From the NCBI GenBank assembly GCA_025928885.1, contig JAICIM010000003.1, forward strand, positions 1 through 37,493: 37,493 bases of DNA, read 5' to 3'. Made by a program: the position numbers and the translations under genes. Shown piece by piece: positions 4,909-7,212 of this stretch; the first letter of the stretch is position 1; each line of letters opens with the position of its first letter. The DNA comes from Ktedonobacteraceae bacterium. GTDB taxonomy: Bacteria > Chloroflexota > Ktedonobacteria > Ktedonobacterales > Ktedonobacteraceae. The notes under the pieces are model-generated. The model saw only the letters and a list, made by a program, of their open reading frames with translations, was not told the DNA's origin and searched no databases.

Positions 4909-5760
4909 ATGTTCTCTCTCTATAATCAGGTGCAGGAGGCCGTCGCTGCGATCCAGGAGCGAACAACGCTCAAGCCTGCGGTAGCGATCATCTTAGGGTC
5001 GGGCCTGGGCGATCTGGCCGCCGAGCTGGAGAACGCGGTTGCCGTTCCCTATGCTGAAATTCCTCATTTTGCTCAATCAACCGTTTCGGGCCATGCTGGG
5101 CGTCTGCTGCTGGGGACACTGGAGGATGTGCCGGTGCTGGTGATGCAGGGACGTTTTCATTTCTACGAGGGCCATTCGATGGCGGCATTGACGCTGCCCG
5201 TTCGTGTGATGCGCATGCTGGGTGCCGAAACGCTTGTCGTCACCAATGCTGCTGGTGGAGTCAATCCGGCCTATCAGCCGGGCGATTTTATGTTGATTCG
5301 CGACCATATCAATCTGCCGGGTCTGGCTGGAGCCAATCCATTGATCGGACCCAACGAGGAGCGTTTTGGCGAGCGCTTCCCGGCGATTGCCCATGCCTAT
5401 GATGCGCAACTGAACGCTCTGGCCCGCGAGGTTGCTGCTGAACGCTCGGAGATCACACTGCACGAGGGCATCTATACGATGGTGGCCGGTCCCAGCTTTG
5501 AGACTCCCGCTGAATTGCGCTTCCTGCGCACGATAGGCGCCGACGCCGTGGGAATGTCAACGGTGCCAGAGGTTATTGTGGCCCGCCATATGCAGATGCA
5601 GGTACTGGGGATCAGTTTGATTACGAATAAAGCGACCGGTGAGGAGACGGGAGAGGCGAGCCATACTGAGGTATTAGAAACGGCGAACTCGGTTCGTCCG
5701 AAGTTCGCCGCGCTGGTTCGTGGGATTATGCGCAGAATGCAGCCATCTTCAGCTGTTTAA
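4909..5760 (+). CDS. punA: purine nucleoside phosphorylase, trimeric (class I low-mass) type
   Basis: Cleaves inosine and guanosine (and deoxy forms) with phosphate to free base and (deoxy)ribose-1-phosphate in purine salvage. The family is shown by the GSGLGDL phosphate motif, GRFHFYEGH, VVTNAAGGVN, GPSFETPAELR, GADAVGMSTVPEVIVARH and SLITNKATGE. The active-site Glu and Asn are present. I start at MFSLYNQ (283 aa), eight bases after AAGGAGG, which matches the usual family length. The track's 29-residue extension overlaps the promoter. The stop codon overlaps the stop of the convergent gene in a TTAA tetranucleotide. It stands alone, not in a nucleoside operon. Confidence 0.93.
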   Translation: MFSLYNQVQEAVAAIQERTTLKPAVAIILGSGLGDLAAELENAVAVPYAEIPHFAQSTVSGHAGRLLLGTLEDVPVLVMQGRFHFYEGHSMAALTLPVRVMRMLGAETLVVTNAAGGVNPAYQPGDFMLIRDHINLPGLAGANPLIGPNEERFGERFPAIAHAYDAQLNALAREVAAERSEITLHEGIYTMVAGPSFETPAELRFLRTIGADAVGMSTVPEVIVARHMQMQVLGISLITNKATGEETGEASHTEVLETANSVRPKFAALVRGIMRRMQPSSAV

Positions 5761-6449
5761 TTTGCCTTGCTGACGTGAAACCCAACCCAACTCCAGTTGG
5801 CATATATGCCCCAGGCATTCAATATAACGAGATAGTAATCGCCCTTTTTGGCATCTGGTGAGATGCTAAACTTCCACATGCCCTGGCCCTTGTCGTCGCA
5901 TGAATGGGTCTGTGGAGTGGTCGGATCAAACACCAATACATTTTGAACCTCTTCCGTGAAGGGTTGTGAAATGCTTGCGGTGTTTTTAAGCTCATCCTGT
6001 TTAATCTTAACGATGCCGTTGTTATCGGGTACCTTTGAAAGCCAGAGTTTGCAAGTAATGCCCGGCGATTGGAGTGCCTGGCCATGAGTGCATGCGCTCG
6101 AATTACCTGTTTTCGCTACAGCGTGCGCCTGGAAGGTGTGGATGGTGGCTCCATCAGCCACGCCTCCGGCGTCGGTCTGATCGATGCTAGGACAGTTGAG
6201 CGGCTGTGCTTCGGTTTTCGGGGCCGTCGTTGGTTGAGCTTTCTGGGCGACCGGGTTGACGGTAGGAACTGCCGTCGGTTGCGCCGCTTGTTGAGGACGA
6301 GTGACTGCGCCTACAGCAAAGCCTATAATCAGCCCGGAAAGGGCCAATAACGTAATGGCGGTAATGATGAGCGATTGTGTGCGTGCAGGGCCGCCATTCT
6401 GGCTATTGGGCGGCATATTTGGTTGTGGTCTGGACATTGTTTGTTGCAT
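5757..6449 (-). CDS. membrane-anchored extracytoplasmic protein of unknown function
   Basis: A 230-residue protein. Residues 1-25 are polar and proline/asparagine-rich. One hydrophobic segment at about 27-50 (SLIITAITLLALSGLIIGFA) acts as a signal anchor. A low-complexity Q/A/P/T/V linker follows, then a globular domain of about 140 residues containing three or four cysteines (LNCPSID, SSACTHG, GITCKL, HSCDDKG) that could form disulfides outside the membrane, and aromatic strands near the end (YYLVILNAWGIYANWSWVGF). No family is recognised. The candidate structured RNA with its terminator lies upstream on the same strand, so that RNA could be a leader for this gene. It overlaps the convergent punA by four bases. 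Confidence 0.65.
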   Translation of the reverse strand: MQQTMSRPQPNMPPNSQNGGPARTQSLIITAITLLALSGLIIGFAVGAVTRPQQAAQPTAVPTVNPVAQKAQPTTAPKTEAQPLNCPSIDQTDAGGVADGATIHTFQAHAVAKTGNSSACTHGQALQSPGITCKLWLSKVPDNNGIVKIKQDELKNTASISQPFTEEVQNVLVFDPTTPQTHSCDDKGQGMWKFSISPDAKKGDYYLVILNAWGIYANWSWVGFHVSKAN

Positions 6450-6570
6450 GCTATAAAAACGCCTTCTACTTGTCTTTCAATGCTCAATCCTTGTTCTCAT
6501 GATACCACGCTCCCGCCAGTCCGTTGACAAAAACAAGCACGTTATAGCCCAAATAGGTCTCTCTGGCTGA

Positions 6571-6610
6571 GAAAAAAGAGACCGGTCGCATTCTGGGGAA
6601 ACGCGACCGG
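6571..6610 (-). terminator. intrinsic terminator of the candidate small RNA
   Basis: On the minus strand CCGGTCGC pairs with GCGACCGG (8 bp plus a G-T pair) across a loop of about 11 bases, followed by TCTCTTTTTTC. This fixes the direction of the upstream structured RNA. Confidence 0.75.
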
Positions 6611-6762
6611 CGCACCTGGGTCAGGGGTGTGTGGGGGAAAAGCTCCCAGGTACGGATACCGTCCACCACAAGCAGCGCAGCATGGCTTGTCGGGGCAGAT
6701 GAGACACGAGATACCATGCTGCGCTGTGAGATCTCTTGTATGCTCTCTCATGAATATGAACG
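6571..6762 (-). ncRNA. candidate structured RNA (~190 nt), sRNA or leader
   Basis: Between a TTGACT/GAGAAT promoter and an intrinsic terminator the minus strand holds three hairpins in tandem. Hairpin 1 is a perfect 13-bp stem (CAGCGCAGCATGG with CCATGCTGCGCTG, 6673-6726) enclosing 28 bases. Hairpin 2 has stem ACCTGGG/CCCAGGT (6614-6651) with a C/T-rich loop. Hairpin 3 is the terminator. The ORFs in the track here are not gene-like and are crossed by the stems. I could not match it to 6S, SRP, tmRNA, RNase P RNA or a riboswitch class I know. It may act in trans, or attenuate the gene at 5757-6449. Confidence 0.5.
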
Positions 6763-6768
6763 CAACCT

Positions 6769-6797
6769 ATTCTCTCTTTGGGATATTTGGCAGTCAA
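6769..6797 (-). promoter_or_regulatory. promoter of the candidate structured RNA
   Basis: On the minus strand: TTGACT, 17 bases, GAGAAT (4 of 6 to consensus). The predicted start is near 6762, giving an RNA of about 190 nt to the terminator. Confidence 0.5.
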
Positions 6798-6894: not shown

Positions 6895-7212
6895 ATGGGC
6901 GGATTTCATATGCTCGACATTATCGTTGTAGCCGCGATCGCGCTGGCGTTATTTGGTCCCAAAGCGCTGCAATCGATGGCTCGCGGTGCTGGCAAAGGGG
7001 TCGCGCAGGCTAAAGATATGAAAGATAAGCTGATGTCGGATTTGCCAGTAGAGGATATCACGAAAATTACTGATAACATTCCCCAGGTTCCTCTCAATGC
7101 ACGTCAGGCCGTTGGGATGCTGCTGGCTTCCGACGCGGGCAAAGAGAAAGAGCCGAAGACCGAACTTAAGAAGGTTGAGGAAGATCAGGAGGTCAAAGCG
7201 AACGAGTTGTAA
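6895..7212 (+). CDS. tatA: TatA-family twin-arginine translocase subunit
   Basis: A 105-residue protein with the TatA/Hcf106 layout: an N-terminal membrane helix (MLDIIVVAAIALALFGP), the FGPKAL hinge, then an amphipathic helix (QSMARGAGKGVAQAKDM) and a charged E/K-rich tail. TatA oligomers open the membrane for folded twin-arginine proteins. AAAGGGG lies just upstream; the start is MGGFHML or the internal ATG five codons on. No tatC or tatB is in the window, so it is an orphan subunit here. It is followed 68 bases later by the PCD gene and may share a transcript. Confidence 0.85.
   Translation: MGGFHMLDIIVVAAIALALFGPKALQSMARGAGKGVAQAKDMKDKLMSDLPVEDITKITDNIPQVPLNARQAVGMLLASDAGKEKEPKTELKKVEEDQEVKANEL

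Follow-up and report, generated by a model that had tools for sequence, protein, structure and literature searches.

The window, that is, the whole 37,493-nt stretch of DNA analysed here, comes from a genome of the Ktedonobacteraceae (Chloroflexota), a family of soil bacteria. The named relatives of its tatA gene product also belong to this family and include Ktedonosporobacter rubrisoli. On the minus strand, between gene 5757-6449 and a divergent tatA-like gene (6895-7212), lies an element that is, judged by its sequence features, a compact stand-alone small-RNA gene. The region comprises the following features, given in the direction of the predicted transcript.

6895..7212, plus strand: divergent tatA/B-like gene, the usual neighbour, outside the RNA.
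6759..6782, minus strand: conserved promoter-like element, CCCAAA (6782-6777) and CGTT (6762-6759) with the core AAA-N15-GTT, present in 21 of 21 homologs; putative promoter.
6572..6751, minus strand: predicted sRNA transcript of ~180 nt (start ~6750), its 5' end placed from the promoter-like element and its 3' end from the terminator.
6743..6748, minus strand: 5' AGAGAG, predicted to form the closing helix P1 with CUCU after the terminator stem.
6673..6726, minus strand: hairpin P2, 14 bp (6726-6713 with 6686-6673), variable, absent in genomes G011, G016, G020 and G023.
6612..6653, minus strand: hairpin P3, 9 bp (6653-6645 with 6620-6612), with the C-rich 24-nt loop AGCUUUUCCCCCACACACCCCUGA (6644-6621); 9 of 9 pairs show double changes among 21 homologs.
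6581..6611, minus strand: terminator hairpin P4 (6611-6603 with 6589-6581), loop UUUCCCCAGAA; double changes in 8 of 9 pairs, 97.4% of cells paired, also found by the terminator scan.
6571..6580, minus strand: tail CUCUUUUUUC after P4, a conserved CUC and then a U-tract (CUCUUUUUU, 6580-6572), from the terminator scan and the homolog alignment.
6499..6557, minus strand: distinct promoter region serving the downstream gene, with an operator-like CCTATTTGGGCTA (6557-6545) and an extended -10 TGGTATCAT (6507-6499); of 29 loci, 14 show the strict operator pattern and 28 the extended -10 pattern.
5757..6449, minus strand: downstream gene of 230 aa without a Pfam or NCBIfam match, neighbour of the RNA, with a copy in each of the 29 family genomes.

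The hairpins and the terminator noticed in a first-pass annotation of this DNA are borne out on the minus strand, where a 14-bp hairpin, a 9-bp hairpin, and a strong terminator hairpin with a U-tail follow one another; the stem sizes given there are 13 and 7 bp. The minus-strand fold reaches -97.8 kcal/mol against -79.5 +/- 5.1 kcal/mol for shuffled sequences (z = -3.6), and none of 200 shuffles is as stable. The plus-strand fold is much weaker relative to its shuffles (z = -1.6, 12 of 200). The earlier impression that no plausible reading frame exists extends to the relatives, in which no frame is conserved because the loops of close relatives differ by one or two bases. A small-protein reading was rejected on this absence of a conserved frame.

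Upstream of the hairpins, the pattern AAA-N15-GTT-N7..12-AGAG occurs in all 21 loci, compared with a mean of 0.05 and a maximum of 1 in dinucleotide shuffles. GTT and AGAG anchored the first alignment and AAA did not; AAA is invariant at a fixed spacing in 17 aligned loci. We infer that the AAA-N15-GTT element is the promoter of the RNA. Its position at 6782-6759 implies a likely start near 6750, so that the length of about 190 nt proposed earlier becomes ~180 nt, with the 3' terminator retained. The element resembles SigI-like promoters (A-tract plus CGWA; PMC10575876), a likeness only. A search for a wider regulon gave no excess, with 8 sites where the control has 9; the pattern in the form used does not recover the copy in the window itself. 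The sigma70 promoter assigned in the first-pass annotation, TTGACT-17-GAGAAT, is probably not the real one: it matches at 9 of 12 positions, the window holds 3 such sites with 2.3 expected, and the relatives lack it at this place.

A DNA search of 60 relatives returned two clear matches, both beside tatA. Inspection of the region upstream of tatA within the family revealed many more copies, with stems almost unlike in sequence and loops that are kept. A covariance model of the 3' half of the RNA (R1) detects the RNA in 21 of the 29 family genomes, always as a single copy and across nine genera (E 7e-23 to 7e-13), and detects none in 18 genomes from sister families of the order. Some of the absences within the family come from fragmented genomes; the syntenic gaps of G002, G004, and G005 gave no match to the RNA. 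A search of a plasmid collection returned nothing. In G006, locus L050 upstream of tatA may hold a degenerate copy, with AAA-N15-GTT, AGAG, two hairpins, and CUCUUUUCUUUU (CUCUUUU), and without the C-rich P3 loop. A second model (R2), run on 301 Chloroflexota genomes, yielded just four further matches, all of them weak (G194, G276, G224, and G148), with 22-34 bits against at least 56 for real copies; all four lie inside protein-coding frames and were rejected.

The stems covary. The first alignment, of 15 loci, was made by sequence alone; pairs were counted on it for a two-hairpin structure that had been drawn by eye, and 15 of its 18 pairs show double changes. RNAalifold, unaided, predicts the same two helices. 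With 21 sequences, compensatory double changes are present in 17 of 18 pairs and 93.6% of cells are paired, in an alignment that was fitted to the model and is hence biased toward the structure; the first, sequence-only alignment agreed. The covariation score is 0.64 for the 21 sequences versus 0.30 in shuffles, of which none in 500 reaches it, and controls with a slid structure attain at most 0.14 in score and 39% in pairing. Together with the single copy per genome in nine genera, the promoter-like element, and the lack of an Rfam match, this covariation strongly supports the earlier suggestion of a stand-alone, undescribed small RNA. At the sequence level, the locus is an independent unit with a terminator and a conserved structure, and it is classed as a bacterial trans-encoded sRNA gene because it combines the promoter-like element, covariation, and terminator. 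A full-text literature search on small and other non-coding RNAs of Ktedonobacter and the Ktedonobacteria found no relevant paper, and we regard this predicted RNA as previously undescribed and conserved across the Ktedonobacteraceae.

Conservation is distributed unevenly along the molecule. The predicted RNA measures ~175-220 nt in most genomes and 290 nt in genus g13, and models give ~95-105 nt in the four genomes without P2 (G016, G020, G023, and G011). This hairpin is, by such comparisons, an optional and dispensable part of the RNA. The CUC after the terminator stem is invariant in 21 of 21 homologs, and the AGAG:CUCU pairing of P1 has a probability of 0.88 in the window and at least 0.68 in 18 of 21 predicted transcripts. 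P1 offers no covariation because AGAG and CUC are both invariant. In P3, the loop pattern UUCCC(CC)A...CC is kept in all 21 homologs, with 3-5 consecutive C plus further C and only 0-2 G per loop. Loop length and spacing vary between genera, from 17 to 24 nt. Among 13 representatives, the P3 loop carries 1.27 bits of information per column versus 1.05 for the stems, and U, CCC, A, and C are its invariant positions. The terminator loop of P4 is C-rich and of the CCCCAG type in 16 of 21 homologs; it is replaced in genus g13. Most full-length folds predict that the loop C's are unpaired, with exceptions for P3 in G000 and G010 (~0.46) and for P4 in G001, G010, and G013.

A design of this kind is known from the 6C RNA of Actinobacteria, in which two neighbouring stem-loops each expose a C run (PMC4046766). 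In the mycobacterial form, B11, either of two C-rich loops represses a message whose 5' UTR carries a tract of six G (PMC10470900). We consider it reasonably probable that the Ktedonobacteraceae RNA is a stand-alone trans-acting sRNA whose C-rich loops pair selectively with G-tract messages independently of Hfq. The gene would be transcribed leftward from a dedicated promoter of the AAA-N15-GTT type and end at its own terminator. The transcript would close through pairing of 5' AGAG with 3' CUCU and present two hairpins with C-rich, G-poor loops. Being single-stranded, these loops would pair with G-tracts that overlap or lie close to the ribosome-binding sites of a restricted group of mRNAs. 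Such pairing would block translation without Hfq, as the actinobacterial 6C RNA does, so the RNA probably silences messages that carry G runs. Hfq (PF17209) was found in none of the 29 Ktedonobacteraceae genomes, with controls detected. A search of the RNA's own genome gave no long complementary target, with 55 loose loop-complement sites versus 49 for the reversed control. A general anti-Shine-Dalgarno role finds no backing either: among 199 ORFs of this genome, GGGGA precedes 2%, which is the shuffled level, and AGGAG precedes 14%, ORF starts being crude in both counts. Since GGGGA is not the usual Shine-Dalgarno sequence and a long target is lacking, either only a few messages are targeted or the loops have some other ligand. 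The loss of the second C-loop in genus g13 and the dispensable P2 count against the mechanism. Selective G-tract pairing is proposed from the likeness to 6C, the absence of Hfq, and the lack of a general match to ribosome-binding sites, with protein binding retained as the main rival.

Under that rival, which we hold to be unlikely, the C-rich loops would bind and titrate a protein with a preference for unpaired C-rich RNA, such as a KH-domain protein, a cold-shock protein, or Rho. The exact loop core UUCCC..A..CC is kept while stems change freely, and neither an extended target nor a match to the common ribosome-binding site across the genome was seen; however, the candidate partner is still hypothetical, and the variation in loop spacing and length (17 to 24 nt) suits short pairing seeds equally well. 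A different alternative, also raised by the first-pass annotation, is a leader or attenuator of gene 5757-6449. In most relatives this gene follows just downstream on the same strand, with the terminator in between. Yet a conserved promoter of its own lies past that terminator, and genomes that lack the RNA have this promoter too. An extended -10 of the form TGnTATnAT precedes the gene in 28 of 29 loci and the strict operator pattern CCAATTtgGGCTA in 14 of 29 (L107-L135), with mostly exactly 50 bp from the operator box to the extended -10. Moreover, the gene lies 8.3 kb from the RNA in G010, and a different gene stands behind the RNA in G015, where the 230-aa gene sits on another contig; an alternative anti-terminator fold was not seen. 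Since the RNA is thus not always upstream of this gene, and since the gene has its own promoter, the attenuator reading is very improbable. In G001, G008, and G013 the RNA is not adjacent to tatA, and because of these arrangements and those in G010 and G015 it is tied obligatorily to neither neighbour. As a separate observation, the CCAATTtgGGCTA box with the extended -10 forms a conserved activator-type promoter in many Ktedonobacteraceae. The downstream gene itself, with its 230-aa product, is an uncharacterised core gene of the family, with two copies in several genomes (G007, G011, G016, G020, G023 in tandem).

Two known RNA classes were also considered for the locus. No Rfam family matches the RNA: a search of the whole window, and loose-threshold searches of the element and of 12 relatives' loci, gave only chance matches of microRNA type or to other eukaryotic families. 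The least probable of all alternatives is a 6S RNA, so far unrecognised, with RNA polymerase as its binding partner. The size near 180 nt, the paired ends, and the absence of any detected 6S RNA (RF00013) from the 29 family genomes, with controls detected, would fit it. However, the molecule has two independent C-loop hairpins and lacks the single long rod with its central bubble, finds no match in the RF00013 model, shrinks to 95 nt in its short form, and is absent from 18 sister-family genomes. It appears improbable that the RNA is a genuine 6C RNA (RF01066) that has diverged strongly after inheritance or transfer from Actinobacteria. Such a relative would share the plan of two neighbouring C-run stem-loops and short forms near 100 nt. 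In 6C, each of the two adjacent stem-loops carries a run of about six C; here adjacent stem-loops occur in 21 of 21 homologs, with 3-5 consecutive C in the P3 loop and a C run of P4 in 16 of 21, lost in g13. Against it, in a search of 29 genomes with E <= 1 the 6C model is silent at the RNA loci, as it is in the loci of 12 relatives, nothing exceeds its cut-off in 151 Chloroflexota genomes, and the host belongs to the Chloroflexota and not to the Actinomycetales, where 6C occurs. The loci thus stay below the Rfam gathering score, a weak negative because the model falls below cut-off even in the C. glutamicum control. In another Chloroflexota family, locus L194 (G091:C99:25723-25793) shows a sub-threshold match to the 6C model (34.3 bits, E 0.01).

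Selective pairing of the C-rich loops with G-tract messages remains our preferred reading, and the RNA is directly testable because its stems covary, it occurs family-wide as a single copy, and its promoter-like element is conserved. Tentatively, with somewhat less than an even chance, we suggest that it represents a new family of RNAs with no kinship to 6C, which would have reached the same design independently in a second phylum, again of mycelial bacteria that form spores and lack Hfq, with C-loops that police G-tract messages and a dedicated alternative promoter bearing the invariant AAA-N15-GTT. Actinobacteria are not known to have Hfq. Should the loops work in the manner of 6C, two distant Hfq-less phyla would share the C-loop solution, which would bear on how sRNAs act without this chaperone.

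Comparison with known systems delineates this proposal. The UCCC-motif sRNAs of Firmicutes (RsaE/RoxS and the LhrC family) use C-rich single-stranded loops as seeds against G-rich ribosome-binding sites. The Ktedonobacteraceae loop complement, in contrast, fits the usual Shine-Dalgarno sequence of its host poorly, and the known likeness lies in the C-rich loops alone. 6S RNA (RF00013) resembles the window's RNA in a size near 180 nt and in ends that pair, and differs in its rod with a central bubble. 6C RNA has plain C runs, whereas the loops here read UUCCCCCACACACCCC and CCCCAG; the AGAG:CUCU closing helix, the optional third hairpin, the RNA's own promoter-like element, another phylum, other neighbours, and the failure of the 6C model to detect it set the RNA further apart. 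Nevertheless, both are trans-encoded with two neighbouring C-exposing stem-loops, the short forms here measure ~95 nt against ~100 nt for 6C, and the pairing of loops with G-tracts in 5' UTRs, published for 6C (PMC10470900; PMC4046766), is the action proposed here.
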